A stretch of DNA of 20,838 nucleotides from a virus. The DNA lies in IMG/VR virus record IMGVR_UViG_3300021197_000079, positions 1-20,838 of that record; one strand, given 5' to 3'. The notes under the pieces are model-generated. The model saw only the letters and a program-made list of their open reading frames with translations. It did not search any database and was not told the origin of the DNA. This document shows, in pieces, positions 3,401 through 20,522 of the stretch; the first letter of the stretch is position 1; each line of letters starts with the position of its first letter. The translations under genes and the position numbers were made by a program.

Positions 3401-4861
3401 GAAGTTTCCACTAGCATCCCGTGCCACAACCTTAGAAGCAGTGTTTGCATCTGTAGCGTCTACAGCCACAGTATCGGCTGCTACCGTGATAAAGCTGCCA
3501 GCGCCTACGTTAAGAGTGGCATCTCCTGTAGAGGAACCACCTGTGAGGCCAGAGCCAGCTACAACAGAAGTGATGTCACCTGATCCACCACCACCACCAC
3601 CTGAGACCGTAGAAGGCTTCCAGTAGCTATTGGTGTTGTCCCATGTCAGGACTTGTCCGTCTGAGGGAGTAGCAGTAGTTGTGTCTACATCAGTAAGGGC
3701 ATCAATGCTGGTAGCATTAATCTTTGTTAAGACACGGGCATCAGTGTAATACTGATTGCTGCCTTCGCTAAGGTCACCAGTATCTTTAGTCGCCAACTGA
3801 GTGTCGAAGCGAGCATTAGTGTAGTAGAGGTTCGTGCTGCCCTCAGACAAGTCGTCAGTGTCTTTGGTGGCAATACGAGTATCGAAAGCGCTATTAGCTC
3901 TAGTATCGGTATAGTAGAGGTTGCTACTACCTTCGGTGATGTTGTCCGTTGTAGAAGTAGAGGCCAGCTTGCCATCTAGGGCCGTCTGAAGACCGTCTAC
4001 GTTGGCGATAGTGTGGTCGTGACTGTCATCTGCTACAGCAGCAGTGATCGTTATATCAACAGTCCCATCGAAGGACGCAGAACCAGTGACATCCCCACCA
4101 AGGGAAATAGTACGAGCCGTAGCAAGTCGTGTAGCTTGGTCAGCAGAGGATACTGCATCGTTGATTTGAACGTATGCAGAACCAGACCAACGATAGATGT
4201 CCCCTGTAGCAAGGTCTACATAAATCTTACCAGCCTCGCCAGTGCCGGGGAAGCCAGCGTAAGTAGCGTACTCTTCTACGTCATCTACATAGCTAGGAAG
4301 CTGACTTGCAGGGACAGTGCCACCAACCAGAGTAGCATAGGTGCCGTGATCGCTGATCTGGCTTTCAGTTATGCTTAGTGCTGCTTGGTGTGCAGTTACG
4401 TCGCCTTGGGTTACAGTATAGTCAGTGATGTAACCAGCGCCATTAGTAAGCTGATTGTTGTTGGTAGGTACAGTGGGAATATCGGAGCTAAGGGCCAGAG
4501 TACCAGTGCCACCGGGAATGGTGTGAGTATTAAGAGAGGTCGCAGTAACACCACCTACCGAGATGTCGTTAGTGGTAGTGTTGTTATTAGAGGTAACATC
4601 GTCAAGCGTGTTAGAAGCACCCGCCACTGTCACAAAGCTGTAGGTGTCATCACCGTCCGCTTGGAGAAGCTGACCAGTGGTTGCACTGTCTGTGTCAACA
4701 TCTGTAAGGCCGGGTAAAGTAGTAGCTCCGGCAGGGCCAGAAGGCCCTTGAGGACCTTGAGGACCAGCCTCACCCCGTGGACCTACAATGTCAAGTACAG
4801 TGAGAGTTAAAGGGCTAGAGAGAACATTGTCACTCGTAACCACCAGTTCATATTTGGCCAT
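488..4861 (-). CDS. Giant repeat-built tail fibre protein with collagen-like N-terminus
   Basis: This 1457-residue protein is the largest in the window. Residues 1-26 resemble the start of the short fibre at 5902. Residues 27-47 form seven Gly-X-Y triplets (collagen-like). The body is mosaic: six copies of a YYT(D/N)xR motif between about residues 310 and 1035, a six-glycine hinge near residue 425, thirteen copies of KL(S/A/T)GIE in two blocks (about 590-890 and 1095-1320), and between the blocks a segment starting LTLAGDLIVNGTTTT near residue 915, of a kind I know from marine phage structural proteins. A distinct 100-residue, Ser/Thr-rich C-terminal region follows and could be the tip. Its ATG overlaps the stop of the upstream adaptor gene (TAATG), implying coupled translation. 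Role: probably a trimeric fibre for host recognition; receptor and fold are unknown. Confidence 0.88.
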   Translation of the reverse strand: MAKYELVVTSDNVLSSPLTLTVLDIVGPRGEAGPQGPQGPSGPAGATTLPGLTDVDTDSATTGQLLQADGDDTYSFVTVAGASNTLDDVTSNNNTTTNDISVGGVTATSLNTHTIPGGTGTLALSSDIPTVPTNNNQLTNGAGYITDYTVTQGDVTAHQAALSITESQISDHGTYATLVGGTVPASQLPSYVDDVEEYATYAGFPGTGEAGKIYVDLATGDIYRWSGSAYVQINDAVSSADQATRLATARTISLGGDVTGSASFDGTVDITITAAVADDSHDHTIANVDGLQTALDGKLASTSTTDNITEGSSNLYYTDTRANSAFDTRIATKDTDDLSEGSTNLYYTNARFDTQLATKDTGDLSEGSNQYYTDARVLTKINATSIDALTDVDTTTATPSDGQVLTWDNTNSYWKPSTVSGGGGGGSGDITSVVAGSGLTGGSSTGDATLNVGAGSFITVAADTVAVDATDANTASKVVARDASGNFSAGTITASLTGNVTGTVSDVSNHDTDDITEGSTNLYYTDARSNSAFDTRLATKSTSDLAEGTNLYYTNARADGRITNAVGTSVQAYSSVLDATTASYTTAEETKLSGIEANATADQTAAEIKTAYESNADTNSYNDAAVSKLSGIEANATQDQTGSEIKALYEAEADTNVFDDADVTKLAGIEALADVTDSANVDPLVDTHINQGTAGNDQVLSWDGSDYVWVDMTATMTDAAVKTAYENNSDTNVFDDAAVTKLSGIEALADVTDATNVAAAGAVMDADIGVNVQAYSTVLDATTASYTTAEETKLSGIEANATGDQTAAEIKTAYESNADTNNYDDAAVTKLAGIESNATGDQTGAEIKTALYAENDTNNYDDAAVTKLAGIEALADVTDTVNVTAAGAVMDSELTNEAAVKAINQGLTTTSDVNFNDLTLAGDLIVNGTTTTVNSTTVEIGDNIITLNSDETGTPSQPAGIEVERGTETNKTLVWDEATNKWTVGTETFVAATFEGNVTGDVTGTVSDISNFTTANLTENTNLYYTDTRANSAIDTRVDKTFIDNLNVDADTLDGNDSTAFATSAQGTKADSALQAAAIGVTVQAYSSVLAATTASYTTAEETKLSGIEANATQDQTGSEIATALFAETDTNNYDDAAVTKLAGIEALADVTDAVNVTAAGAVMDADVGVNVQAYSSVLDNTTASYTTAEETKLSGIETGATADMTGAEIKTAYELEANTNAYTDAEKTKLTGIESSAKDDQTGAEIKALYEAESDTNAFSDADVSKLSGIEANATQDQTAAEIKTAYESNADTNNYDDAAVTKLSGIEAGADVTDSANVDPLVDTHLNTSGATTDQVLAWNGTDYDWIDDPRKTVVSDVSSTPSAIASGSSGKTFRLQTGSGTININNANFAAGDTVSIVNNTSSDKTLTLDAWTAARIAGASANIASTSITLAAYGVATIVCTTSSEAYISGNVS
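900..3110 (-). repeat. Degenerate tandem coding repeats of the fibre (KLxGIE units)
   Basis: About 2.2 kb of the fibre gene is made of related units of roughly 35-45 codons. A typical unit reads KLSGIEANATxDQT, then AEIKTAYE, then a DTNxYDDAAVT segment. An alternative unit has KLAGIEALADVTD followed by VNVTAAGAVMDAD. Thirteen KLxGIE motifs can be counted. A non-repeat insert lies at about 1650-2150. Codon differences among units show they are old or diverged rather than fresh duplications, but several stretches are still nearly identical in DNA. Confidence 0.85.
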
Positions 4862-16772: not shown

Positions 16773-18069
16773 AGCTGAGTTCCGCAATGTCCATGAGGTC
16801 TTGAATAACTTCTGGATGGTCAGAGACGTTAATGTCTGCACCATTCAGATTACGAAGGAAGGCTGCAATCTCACGAAGATCGTGCGGTGCTACATCACCA
16901 GCCTTGATGTACGGCATAGTATCGTAGGAAAGCCCGTTGAGTTGCCAAAGGCGCTCTACGAGTTGCTTGTTGAGTACATCAGTGATGGCACTAATGTAGC
17001 TCTCCAAGGCACGAAGAAAGAGGTCGGTCTTAGATTTAGATAACGCATACGAGCCACCTGCGCTGTGCGCTCCAAGGAGAAGAAACTCAGAGAGAACACT
17101 ACGAGCAATATCGTGCTGATAACGGCTAACGATGGGGTCGATTTGGATATTGCGTGAACCACTAGAGGACATCAATTCTATGTCCATCAGGCGGACGTTG
17201 GTTGGGCTACCATCTTTATCAGGGTAGGTATCACTCGGAAGGATAATGTAACCCTGCTCGTTGAACTTTACGTCTCGGAGGATTTGCTGTAGGTCTGAGC
17301 GGATAGCCGACTGAGAGGCTGTAGCATCGCTAGAGAGGTACTCCGAGGGAATACGGGCTACTGGGATACCAGCAAGCTCTCGTTCCACTGCAATAGCCTC
17401 AATGGACTGAAGGTTGTTCAGATACTCATAAGAGGTATAAGCATTACGAAGAATGCTACGACCACTAGGGTCGCCGTTAATTGCAGTGGTCTTGTAGTAT
17501 AGAGACTTATTAGCCGGGATATAATGGCTTTTACCAAACTGTGAGCCTTCCTGATAGAGACCTAAGACATCACCGGACTTCTGGTCTACATCAAACTTGG
17601 ATACAGTCCAAGGCGCTCTAGAGGCCAACTTACGGATACCGATGCGGCCATCATCGTACTTGGAATACTTCTTGTAGCTACGGAACTGTGGGCCACTACG
17701 ACGCTTATATACTACCTCAAACCAAGCAAAGCCATACGACAAAGAAGACAAAGCCTCTGCGATATGATCGTCAAGAGTGTGGTCCATGTCATCTAAGACA
17801 GACTCAACAAACTCTGCTTCCTTCTTGGCCTCTGGTGTATCATTGCAGGGTACAACCTTCAACTCTACATCACGAAGCACCTGCTCAGTGGCATACATAA
17901 CTGCACCGATGGTGCTGTCGTTGTCACGCATCTCACGGTACTTGCGGATGGCCTTCTTGCCACGAAGCTCCGGTAGGAACTCATCCGCTCGAATCTGACC
18001 GTTATGGGTGTTGTCACCAGCTACACCAAGAATCTTCTTGGCTTCTGTCTCCGATAGCTTCTTGGGCAT
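16705..18069 (-). CDS. Portal protein (DUF935/Mu gp29-like)
   Basis: The 454-residue protein follows the large terminase with a TAATG overlap. Its sequence fits the Mu gp29-like (DUF935) portal group: RKYREMRDNDSTIGAVMYA (about 42-60), a helix with ALSSLSYGFAWFEVVYK (about 106-122), NGDPSGRSILRNAYTSYEYL (about 198-217), where G-x-S-x-L-R is the usual clip-region signature, and SEFLLLGAHSAGGSYALSKS (about 326-345), typical of the later stem. The acidic C-terminal tail (EPNEAPRRDVQPDETERPDQ) is encoded where the next gene begins out of frame. The portal forms the dodecameric DNA channel at one capsid vertex and binds terminase during packaging. Confidence 0.92.
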   Translation of the reverse strand: MPKKLSETEAKKILGVAGDNTHNGQIRADEFLPELRGKKAIRKYREMRDNDSTIGAVMYATEQVLRDVELKVVPCNDTPEAKKEAEFVESVLDDMDHTLDDHIAEALSSLSYGFAWFEVVYKRRSGPQFRSYKKYSKYDDGRIGIRKLASRAPWTVSKFDVDQKSGDVLGLYQEGSQFGKSHYIPANKSLYYKTTAINGDPSGRSILRNAYTSYEYLNNLQSIEAIAVERELAGIPVARIPSEYLSSDATASQSAIRSDLQQILRDVKFNEQGYIILPSDTYPDKDGSPTNVRLMDIELMSSSGSRNIQIDPIVSRYQHDIARSVLSEFLLLGAHSAGGSYALSKSKTDLFLRALESYISAITDVLNKQLVERLWQLNGLSYDTMPYIKAGDVAPHDLREIAAFLRNLNGADINVSDHPEVIQDLMDIAELSYEPNEAPRRDVQPDETERPDQE

Positions 18070-19424
18070 TATCTAAGTCCTTTCGCAGAGCTATACGCCA
18101 GCTTTAATTGGGGCTTGGCATAGCCCTGTAGAGATAGGTCCGTAATAGCCCATACAAGGGCGTCAAGGCGGTCTGGTGATCCTACGGAGCCTAGTGGCTC
18201 CCAAGTGACCATCTGGTCCTCAAGGTCGTTGAGACCCTTTACATGACGTACCTTGTCTTGTTCATACAGGGCGGAGACTGGCTCAGCACGGGCCATCTTG
18301 CCTCGACTAGCATGGACTAGCTTGACAGGGACCGTCTCAGACTCTGTGTGGAGAGTGTGGCGAACCATATCTCCGCCCTGATTACGTTCGGCGACAATCC
18401 GGTCAGCTTGATACTCTTCAAAGAGTGACACTGCCCTCGCAGCCCATTGCTGGGGTGTGTAGCGACCTGTGTGGTCAGCCAGAACGTAAGCGATACCATT
18501 TACGTCAACCCCTGCTACAACAATACCAGTCATATCTGACTCTTTGTTGCTTGTAATGGCAGGGTCAATAGATACTACAATGCGGTTTAAGTCAGGTACT
18601 TTATCTGCTTCAACCTCTACCTGTGCAAGTCCTGATCGACTCCACAAGGCACCAGAGGCTTCATCAAGGATTTCAGCGTAAAGCTCTTGTCTACCAAGTC
18701 TAGTGCCTTCATACGTCTTCCTAACTGCATCAAGGAACGTAGAGGCTAGGTTAGCAGAGTTATCATAGGTGGAGCCTGTAGACGTTACCGTCTTCTCATC
18801 ACCTAATATCGTCCTCAGTAGCTTGGTGGTCTTAGGGGTTGTAGTGATAAACACTTGTGGATGTCTACCGAGACGTAACCCAAACTGCAACATATCCCAA
18901 GTCTCTTGGGCATTCCGCCAAGCACAAAGCTCATCACACCATGCAGAGTAAGCCTGTGGACCACGAAGACGCTCTGGGTCTTCCGCCGAAAAGAATACAG
19001 CCTTAGCCCCATTCTCCCAAGTCATTGTGTTATTGGTAGGAGACCATTCTGGGTAGCCAACATGCTTACCACGGTAGGTCTTATCACCCTTCCAACATAC
19101 ATTAAGAAGGCCACTATCGCCCTCTACCATGACCTTCCGTACATCACCCTTTGTTGGTGCTACACAATGTACGATCTTGTCGCCTTTGCGGATACGGTGT
19201 CTTACCCACTCTGCTCCGGCTCTGGTCTTACCCCAGCCTCGTCCTGCTAATGCTACCCAAATATCCCAGTGGTTGCCTGTAGGCTCCATCTGGTTGGGTC
19301 TAGCCCAGAACTCCCAAGTGTGTTGTAACTCTTCCGCTTTAGCTGGCCCTAGCTGGGCCATGATGGATGCTACTTCTTCATCAGGTAGTTGTCGTAGGTC
19401 ATTCGCTGTTATCGGAAGGGTCAC
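18069..19424 (-). CDS. terL: Terminase large subunit
   Basis: The 451-residue protein carries both domains of a DNA packaging motor. ATPase: Walker A GRGWGKTRAG at 61-70, Walker B-like YSAWCDEL at 159-166 with D164 and E165, and coupling motif ITTTPK at 193-198. Nuclease: SIDPAIT at 285-291 (D287), VAERNQGGD at 344-352 (E347) and DRLDALVWA at 418-426 (D421), giving the usual acidic triad of the RNase H-like fold. Length is normal for the family. It starts inside the small subunit gene (26-base overlap) and ends on the portal start codon. It cuts concatemeric DNA and pumps it through the portal. Confidence 0.97.
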   Translation of the reverse strand: MTLPITANDLRQLPDEEVASIMAQLGPAKAEELQHTWEFWARPNQMEPTGNHWDIWVALAGRGWGKTRAGAEWVRHRIRKGDKIVHCVAPTKGDVRKVMVEGDSGLLNVCWKGDKTYRGKHVGYPEWSPTNNTMTWENGAKAVFFSAEDPERLRGPQAYSAWCDELCAWRNAQETWDMLQFGLRLGRHPQVFITTTPKTTKLLRTILGDEKTVTSTGSTYDNSANLASTFLDAVRKTYEGTRLGRQELYAEILDEASGALWSRSGLAQVEVEADKVPDLNRIVVSIDPAITSNKESDMTGIVVAGVDVNGIAYVLADHTGRYTPQQWAARAVSLFEEYQADRIVAERNQGGDMVRHTLHTESETVPVKLVHASRGKMARAEPVSALYEQDKVRHVKGLNDLEDQMVTWEPLGSVGSPDRLDALVWAITDLSLQGYAKPQLKLAYSSAKGLR

Positions 19425-19791
19425 GGGATTTGCCTAAGAGAGTCATAAGGGCGTCAATAGCAGACTCATCAGTATCAGCATCAGTATCTTGCTCATTCTC
19501 ATTAAGAGTGGAGTTAGGGGACCAACCACCCTTACTACGGAGAAAGAGTTCCTGAGACTTGAAGTCACCATCTAGTGCTTGCTGCACTACTACATTACCT
19601 ACTTGACCTACAATATCAGAACGCTCTTGTGCGATGTCCTGACCATAGGTCTTGTAGAAGGTAGCAAAAGAGCTAGGTGCATCCTGTAGCTCTTGAATGG
19701 ATACCATGATGTCTTTCATAGCTACGCCATCTCGAATCATCTTGCGGATTCGATTGGCAATCGCTTTCTTATAAGGAAGTGCCGCTGGCAT
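19399..19791 (-). CDS. terS: Terminase small subunit
   Basis: This 130-residue protein precedes and overlaps the large terminase gene. The N-terminal half is helical with an HTH-like region (AIANRIRKMIRDGVAMKDIMVSI, about 10-32) followed by APSSFATFYKTYGQDIAQER (about 38-57) and an oligomerisation-type helix (DIVGQVGNVVVQQALDGD). LRSKGGWSP (about 84-92) is common in small terminases. The acidic tail (NENEQDTDADTDES) probably contacts the large subunit. AAGG about 8 bases upstream supports the ATG. It recognises the packaging site, which in many phages lies in or beside this gene; the adjoining 730-bp noncoding region is an attractive candidate. Confidence 0.85.
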   Translation of the reverse strand: MPAALPYKKAIANRIRKMIRDGVAMKDIMVSIQELQDAPSSFATFYKTYGQDIAQERSDIVGQVGNVVVQQALDGDFKSQELFLRSKGGWSPNSTLNENEQDTDADTDESAIDALMTLLGKSRDPSDNSE

Positions 19792-19812
19792 ACTACAGAC
19801 CTTGCTACAGAA

Positions 19813-19884
19813 TTAAGATACATCTAGGGATTTAGAAAACCACATACTATAGTTCTGCTATAGCCTTTATCGAGATCATAATCA
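19813..19884 (-). promoter_or_regulatory. Candidate sigma70-type promoter for the terminase operon
   Basis: In the transcript direction TTGATT is followed after 17 bases by TATAGC, and TATAGT lies a further 11 bases on, all upstream of terS. Both hexamers match the bacterial consensus only partly (4 of 6 each for the first pair). The -10 candidates coincide with CTATAG motifs. Coordinates are approximate. Confidence 0.35.
19845..19867. repeat. CTATAG pair 1 (A then B half-sites)
   Basis: TACTATAGT (19845-19853) is followed by CTATAGCCTT (19858-19867). The CTATAG cores start exactly 11 bp apart, about one helical turn. The same 9-mer and 10-mer recur in pair 2 in the opposite order. Confidence 0.8.
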
Positions 19885-19926
19885 AATTAGTAATTAAACC
19901 TGATATGAATTATGTCTCTGGCTAAT

Positions 19927-19944
19927 CTATAGCCTTACTATAGT
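19927..19944. repeat. CTATAG pair 2 (B then A half-sites)
   Basis: CTATAGCCTT (19927-19936) is followed by TACTATAGT (19936-19944), again with cores starting 11 bp apart. In the minus direction TATACT here could be a -10 element with TTTACT 18 bases upstream. The core is palindromic, so orientation is uncertain. Confidence 0.8.
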
Positions 19945-20264
19945 ATAAGCCTCTTTTGGGGTAAAAGTAAAGGGGTCTCAGAGAATATTTCTTGTTGTTT
20001 TATAAAAATATTGTTGTAGTGTGATATTAATGCTACAGTATGCCCCCTGCCTACTAAGGTAGTGCTGCTGAGTGCCGCTCCTAATAGGGGTCGAAGGTTT
20101 TGACTTATGTTGTAGACCAAGGTGCATACCAACGGAGACTCATACAATTTGAGATAAATATAAGGGTCCCATTTGTGTAACATTTGCGCAACACTCAAGG
20201 ATAATCGACCTGATTGTGCTGTTTATGCCACAGTTCTTAATACGTGTGGAACTTTTGCTTGACA

Positions 20265-20277
20265 CTCGCTAAGCGAG
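20265..20277. repeat. 13-bp palindrome CTCGCTAAGCGAG
   Basis: Two 6-base arms flank a single central base. It follows directly on a TTGACA hexamer (20259-20264, plus strand). It could be an operator or small hairpin; no matching -10 hexamer is seen at the proper distance. Confidence 0.5.
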
Positions 20278-20403
20278 AGCGCAACCATTCCTAAGACTTA
20301 ATTCAAATCCGTAATAGTACAACAAAAGAAAAGCGACCGTGAGCAAATTGCACACAACCGCTTGTCTCTAATTTGATATAGTATGTCCCTAACCTGTAAA
20401 CCT

Positions 20404-20420
20404 GCGCTTTGATCGAGCGC
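20404..20420. repeat. Short inverted repeat GCGCT/AGCGC
   Basis: A 5-bp GC-rich stem (GCGCT with AGCGC) encloses a 7-base loop in the noncoding region. No T-run follows on either strand, so it is not a typical terminator. Confidence 0.35.
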
Positions 20421-20522
20421 TGAAATCTAACACTGAAACGCCACCAATTCGAACAGGTTTGGCTGCTGTTACCGTTGCCGCTATCCGGTTGGCGGTTAAC
20501 GCTTGCTTGCTTGTCTGTTGCT

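Follow-up and report, generated by a model that had tools for sequence, protein, structure and literature searches.

Paired palindromic sites at a candidate sigma-dependent late promoter in relatives of Roseobacter phage CRP-6

The region upstream of the terminase genes in a 20,838-nt stretch of virus DNA (the window, which is the whole stretch analyzed) is probably a late promoter that depends on a phage-encoded sigma factor and bears paired operators for a regulator. Judged from its large terminase, the record is a fragment from a relative of Roseobacter phage CRP-6 (MK613348). Indeed, this protein is 80.4% identical to the CRP-6 terminase large subunit, the best match among 372 phage records, while the remaining 371 stay below 60% identity. 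The terminase genes are encoded on the minus strand, as are the structural genes when read from the long reading frames. In PMC6918029 and PMC8528129, CRP-6 is presented as a phage of a new type, belonging to a group found throughout the ocean; a word search of the two texts returned no "promoter" in either paper, no "sigma" in the former, and no "sigma factor" in the latter. Judged by title and the start of the abstract, none of the open-access articles listed by literature searches describes a phage sigma factor covarying with its promoters, or the CTATAG element treated here, and a DNA-level search for known phages carrying this element gave zero matches.

The CTATAG cluster and the predicted late promoter

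Four CTATAG hexamers start at positions 19847, 19858, 19927, and 19938, forming two pairs with an 11-bp start spacing at exactly the positions given in the original prediction. The longer cores were also as described: TACTATAGT is found at 19845 and 19936 and CTATAGCCTT at 19858 and 19927, in the order A-B and then B-A, with 82 bp between the pair starts. The arrangement is real, but the mirroring that had been emphasized is partly trivial, because CTATAG is its own reverse complement. As had also been pointed out, the motif is not confined to the cluster, since TACTATAGT occurs again at 533 (with ACTATAGT at 534). A count against shuffled sequence, proposed as a check, gave a divided answer. 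CTATAG is not enriched across the whole window (nine copies versus 6.13 expected, with 18 of 100 shuffles reaching nine), but the cluster lies beyond shuffles: among 20,000 dinucleotide shuffles of the 731-bp intergenic region (19792-20522), five contained at least four CTATAG and none contained two 11-bp pairs. Chance is ruled out for the cluster.

A minus-strand promoter, TTTACT-18-TATACT, is predicted before the terminase genes, with 9 of 12 matches to the sigma-70 type and a spacer within the 16-19 bp range. A promoter match alone is weak, as four promoter-like sites were detected in the scanned stretch versus 1.9 in shuffles. The parts of this predicted late promoter, hereafter P_late, and the genes that follow it are:

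19966-19971, minus strand: predicted −35 element TTTACT (within the CCCCTTTAC type); all 11 relatives with this type share a single type of sigma region 4
19948-19957, minus strand: allelic stretch AAAAGAGGCT just upstream of the −10 (extended −10, or candidate sigma-read element); it varies among close relatives, is of the same type at both promoters of a genome, and covaries with sigma residue 73
19942-19947, minus strand: predicted −10 element TATACT; from spacing alone, transcription is predicted to start near 19935
19938-19943, minus strand: CTATAG site 1, overlapping the −10; exact match, conserved in close loci
19927-19932, minus strand: CTATAG site 2, at about +4 to +9; exact match, conserved in close loci
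19916-19921, minus strand: degenerate extra site CCAGAG, 11 bp past site 2; CTATAG in L002 and CTAGAG in L007
19880-19895, no strand assigned: imperfect central palindrome AATTACTAATTTGATT; ATTACCAAATTGGTTAAT in several relatives
19858-19863, minus strand: CTATAG site 3; exact match, conserved in close loci
19847-19852, minus strand: CTATAG site 4 (ACTATAGT); exact match, conserved in close loci
19399-19791, minus strand: putative small terminase gene, first of the late operon, assigned by position and conservation, with no family match
18069-19424, minus strand: large terminase gene, 80.4% identical to its CRP-6 counterpart

The suggestion that the sites overlap possible −10 elements was borne out for the first hexamer, which covers part of TATACT. 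The left "pair" is thus composed of one site overlapping the predicted −10 and one just past the predicted start, while the right pair lies about 73-89 bp past this start, upstream of the small terminase gene; sites 2 to 4 are spread over about +4 to +90. The original prediction missed that the left pair is half promoter, that an element of this kind exists at a second promoter, and that a phage sigma factor seems to read both.

Recurrence of the sites in relatives and at a second promoter

Viral contigs were scanned three times for the large terminase, each scan contributing its best 80 of several hundred matches, and with the window and CRP-6 added this yielded 224 stretches. Of these, 192 extended 500 nt or more upstream (32 were left out), and keeping only representatives less than 97% identical left 105. 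Each of the 16 aligned close loci, the window among them, has kept TATACTATAG and four or more CTATAG. Within the representatives of this best-80-per-scan sample, and with one mismatch to CTWWAG allowed, two pairs located 45-100 bp apart were found in 76 of 105, including the window, versus 0-3 in ten rounds of shuffling, and no double pair was found in the other 29; under the same rule, a pair was present in 94 of 105 versus 27-43 in shuffles, it being understood that shuffles and representative sets leave shared ancestry in these counts. In the same best-80-per-scan sample, the palindromic hexamers paired at 10-13 bp were CTTAAG in 34 entries, CTATAG in 27, and others in 2. The cores drift (CTATAG, CTTAAG, CGTAAG, CATAAG) and are combined in different layouts, such as A-T...T-A, T-T...A-A, or CTTACG...CGTAAG; clades differ in their cores while the spacing and position stay similar. 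Exact CTATAG-5-CTATAG was found in 2 of 12 records searched, each time solely at P_late. When a stricter 8-mer rule was applied (ACTWWAGT, one mismatch, 11-13 bp), no pair was detected in the window, G001, or G002, because the inner sites match over six bases only, and one unrelated pair was detected in G005.

The palindromic sites are thus about one turn apart and conserved above chance, as an operator cluster would be, and the conservation in relatives on which the idea of regulator sites partly depended was found for both the motif and its roughly one-turn spacing. The pair-to-pair distance varies from 45 to 80 bp within the 45-100 bp search range, and the strict phase needed for looping between the pairs was not upheld. 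Two side observations were made on these records. The motif GGGACCC (20164-20170 in the window, minus strand) is present upstream of the large terminase in 70 of the 95 representatives with at least 1100 nt upstream, drawn from the best 80 of several hundred matches per scan. The 43.8-kb G001 record (L084-L086) is probably a complete circular assembly, since its ends appear to overlap by about 120 bases in an alignment of relatives.

In CRP-6, a predicted promoter with sites is also found at about 4090-4200, between gp14 and the primase gene. Across the CRP-6 genome, three ACTWWAGT pairs (at most one mismatch per site) were detected versus 0.7 expected from 20 shuffles; two of them belong to P_late and the third to the primase promoter. 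We then considered the 132 primase loci for which 900 nt or more of upstream sequence were available; a gp14-like gene is present in 113, and 131 have a usable upstream stretch. Where the sigma (gp14-like) gene adjoins the primase gene, a site pair (at most one mismatch per site) precedes the primase in 63 of 71 loci, or in 45 of 71 when an exact match is demanded of one site. Where the sigma gene is located farther away, the pair precedes the primase in 5 of 42 loci and lies at most 170 nt after the sigma gene in 37 of 42. Loci without a gp14-like gene have such a pair before the primase in 4 of 18 cases, and shuffled primase-upstream stretches in 4-11 of 67. In CRP-6 and a large number of relatives, such sites thus recur at a second promoter of the genome, whereas in the closest relatives of the window they are degenerate there: among the nine whose primase promoter could be read (primase at least 85% identical to that of G002), eight carry CTACAG and CTAGAG, and L236 carries none. 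By inspection and uncounted, the last site stands directly before the start codon in many rows, whatever gene follows. In the G005 clade (G005 being L090-L092), a 20-mer, TTGTAGGTATGGTAGTAATA, replaces the ACTWWAGT pairs and occurs exactly twice in the G005 record, at the same two promoters.

Three observations on neighboring genes were made in passing. The start codon annotated for the CRP-6 primase gp15 probably lies too far downstream, as the frame is open from 4201 (L083:4201-4327) and the N-terminus encoded there resembles that of G002. The slot between the primase and DNA polymerase genes is variable (L401:9409-10314, L402:8713-9507, L403:8586-9940, L083:5774-6178) and holds endonuclease VII-like, T5orf172-type, methyltransferase, or other genes, or nothing. 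The divergent early region contains several copies of short repeats, of a TTGCAA-AATGTCAC type in CRP-6 (L083:44333-44927) and of a TCATTTTCCCAC type in G002 (L087:313-700), which are possibly early operators or an origin.

The gp14-like sigma factor and its predicted promoters

The sigma gene and second promoter of the window's own phage are not part of the record, and the evidence on the sigma factor comes from relatives. CRP-6 gp14 is annotated as hypothetical. Profile searches identify the gp14-like protein as a sigma factor, in which both region 2 and region 4 were recognized: Pfam Sigma70_r4 was detected with an E-value of 6.7e-10 in G002 and 0.0083 in CRP-6 gp14, a PHROG sigma family matched most of CRP-6 gp14 (1.3e-07), and a profile match to a PDB sigma chain was obtained (8.5e-12). 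Region 2 was weak by Pfam in both proteins, with E-values of 0.012 and 0.051, below the cut-off. The structure model has a mean pLDDT of 82.5 and a pTM of 0.44, which leaves the domain arrangement uncertain, and most of the fold matches listed for it are sigma subunits, with low TM-scores. Most of 38 aligned sigma factors are 17-30% identical to the first, while the terminases compared are about 80% identical or more. This phage-made sigma factor appears to evolve fast and to read both promoters. In several phages, the sigma gene is immediately preceded by a small gene, the product of which looks mostly acidic by eye (L401:6978-7199, L402:6214-6489, L403:6169-6393); it is possible that this small gene encodes a sigma partner or an anti-sigma factor, and the two products submitted to Pfam had no family above the cut-off.

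The bases before the −10 switch among near-identical phages, as nine loci with terminases at least 97% identical display five forms of four types, one locus being unread. To compare the two promoters of single genomes, 20 records with both terminase and primase were taken, and G007 and G041 were left out for want of a sigma gene on the fetched stretch, leaving 18 genomes in which these bases were read by eye. In a test that ignores relatedness, the two promoters of one genome match at 8.17 of 9 bases on average (range 5 to 9, with G039 at 5) versus 3.68 between genomes, a difference reached in none of 200,000 permutations; an earlier count on 11 records had given 8.45. The last five bases before the −10 are identical at both promoters in 18 of 18 genomes versus 22 of 306 comparisons between genomes.

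We then asked which sigma residues track these alleles. Of 113 sigma loci, 100 could be labelled (13 promoters fit no pattern), and removal of 25 duplicates left 75 distinct ones. Column 73 is the strongest tracker, followed by 84, 93, and 97; among sigma pairs 70-98.5% identical, and again ignoring relatedness, residue 73 differs in 94% of 101 different-allele pairs versus 7% of 150 same-allele pairs. For promoters of the GAC/GGC/GGG group, the pairing is Met with GGC (10/10) and Arg with GAC (17/17), and Gln was seen twice with GGG and once with GAC. Outside this group, TATCCC accompanies Asn in 15 of 19 cases (the others being two GCACT and two TTCC); Trp goes with AGTCCC (2), Asp-Lys with AAAGAGGC (4), Arg-His with AAAGGATCC in three of the four loci having that allele, and Ser-Glu with TTAGGGC (4) but also with TTAGTGGC (2) and AAAGGATCC (1). 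Residue 73 alone does not set the allele across clades, as Asn and Arg each occur with more than one; the code is context-dependent and has exceptions (L241, L240, L246, and L354). One of these, L241, stays an exception when compared with L242, its sigma being 98% identical and its allele different. L240 and L241 also encode a near-identical protein between primase and polymerase and differ in allele, and the variable gene in that slot was rejected as the allele determinant. The switch recurs in separate backgrounds (L253/L254, L328/L333, L344/L348, and L273/L383). On this code, the sigma factor of the window phage should have Asp-Lys at residues 73-74; G036, with AAAAGAGGCC at both promoters, has a sigma factor that reads SDKTR.

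The −35 type tracks the type of sigma region 4 in 21 of 22 loci, L260 being unclassed, with classes named after the rows were seen and loci that are related. The associations are ITKQRVLQID with CCCCTTTAC (11/11), VQYADQRI with TTCGTAA (5/5), SERNVRLREH with CACTTCCGG (3/3), and ITKQMVWSIC with CATTGACC (2/2). In the structure model, residue 73 starts the helix after region 2, and this modelled helix is placed where sigma region 3.0 would be. Region 3.0 is the part of sigma factors that reads the extended −10.

Alternative explanations and relation to known systems

We consider it unlikely that P_late is a plain host sigma-70 promoter, in which the hexamers would be −10-like sequence and drift with no regulator. 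TTTACT-18-TATACT, and TTGACA-17-TATACT in L166, are good matches to such a promoter, but the site clusters exceed shuffles by far in the best-80-per-scan sample and the promoter bases covary with phage sigma residues. Slightly less probable still is an RNA or cruciform hairpin in the late leader, in which site 1 would pair with site 4 and site 2 with site 3 for stability, pausing, or antitermination. The whole element does fold well in the window (z −4.5) and in L166 (−9.3), yet values are near 0 in L138, L162, and L130; a central palindrome exists in several clades, but interior folding is weak and without strand preference (mean z −1.05 sense versus −1.17 antisense, 27 elements). Over 30 distinct late layouts, complementarity is 5.2 for sites 1-4 and 4.77 for 2-3 versus 4.8-4.97 for other combinations, so that only 1-4 is slightly higher, and at the primase promoter (five layouts) both pairings score 4 versus 3.2-4.8 for the others. 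The stem is broken in L129, L102, and L163, site 1 lies upstream of the predicted start, and an Rfam search of the region found no family near its gathering score.

That the element is a packaging start (pac or cos) recognized by the small terminase is very improbable. The element is directly upstream of the small terminase gene, the product of which seems, on our reading, to have an N-terminal HTH and has no Pfam or PHROG terminase match. Against this, a similar element is present at the primase promoter in many relatives, L056 and L225 have different elements with small terminases that are 94.6% identical, and long contigs such as L002 and L020 continue through the element. The original prediction had also offered variants of a phage-type promoter, which we regard as scarcely credible. 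T7-type promoters end in CACTATAG and have CTATAG in common with the sites, but CRP-6 has no annotated RNA polymerase gene, CTTAAG versions exist, and the sites are in tandem; promoters of this type span about 20 bp, and the 11-bp spacing excludes that each CTATAG is a promoter of its own. The hairpin, the packaging site, and the T7-type promoter all fit worse than a sigma-dependent promoter with operators.

For the sigma-dependent promoter, we propose that the phage sigma factor (region 2, a short helix, and region 4) would direct host RNA polymerase to two promoters: one directly behind the sigma gene, from which primase and replication genes would usually be transcribed, and P_late, which would serve the terminase and structural genes. 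Recognition of the −35 would fall to region 4, and that of the bases immediately preceding the −10 to the helix that follows region 2. The hexamers belong to palindromes of the ACTWWAGT type, which are spaced 11-13 bp apart and form two clusters between the −10 and about +90. Their most likely role is that of operators: a dimeric phage regulator would bind them on one face of the helix and control initiation or early elongation. Repression seems likelier, since sites extend over the −10 and the early part of the transcribed region. The binding sites for a late regulator that had been suggested thus remain the best reading, given the conserved motif and spacing. A trans-acting regulator common to both promoters would fit the G005 clade, which has its own 20-mer at both, and the fact that the element does not follow the small terminase. 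The gene for this regulator was not found among small HTH candidates, which are not common across the group, nor was a common regulator seen among early-region genes. The small HTH protein CRP-6 gp12 was rejected, being present in just 4 of 132 loci, and the site of host CtrA (TTAA-N7-TTAA) fits the 11-bp CTTAAG forms only.

Phage sigma factors for middle or late genes are known, such as SPO1 gp28 and gp33/gp34 and T4 gp55. As in these systems, a small phage sigma factor would redirect host RNA polymerase to late promoters, but here its residues vary with elements of two promoters in a lock-and-key fashion and the promoters also bear paired palindromic sites. The likeness to extended −10 recognition is that a helix past region 2 would read the bases just upstream of the −10; these are not TG here and exist as many alleles (AAAAGAGGC, TTAGGGC, AAAGGATCC, GAC/GGC, and others) that switch among close relatives, mostly with residue 73. 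Met boxes are tandem-palindrome operators, and other repressor sites are also spaced by one turn. Short palindromes recurring about once per turn across the predicted transcription start are shared with Met boxes, whereas the present sites are 8 bp long, 11-13 bp apart, and in two clusters, with a WW center and ACT, ACG, or ACA half-sites. CRP-6 itself shares with the group the element at P_late and at the primase promoter, the terminase downstream, and gp14 before the primase, and it differs from the window in its CTTAAG, CGTAAG, CTACAG, and CTATAG cores and its GACGTC allele.

There is an even chance, in our judgment, that the hypervariable sigma factor and its two promoters change together as a private, allele-matched switch in each lineage, with paired ACTWWAGT operators as a second layer. 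If so, a switch set by a residue or two against a few bases would possibly prevent relatives in the same cell from switching on one another's late genes. The natural alleles make up a data set on how sigma factors read promoters, for instance Arg/GAC and Met/GGC in one subgroup, and are a possible source of mutually exclusive sigma-promoter pairs, while the paired sites point to a further phage regulator acting at one or two promoters. An odd repeat thus leads to a testable control circuit in a widely distributed, little-studied group of marine phages.
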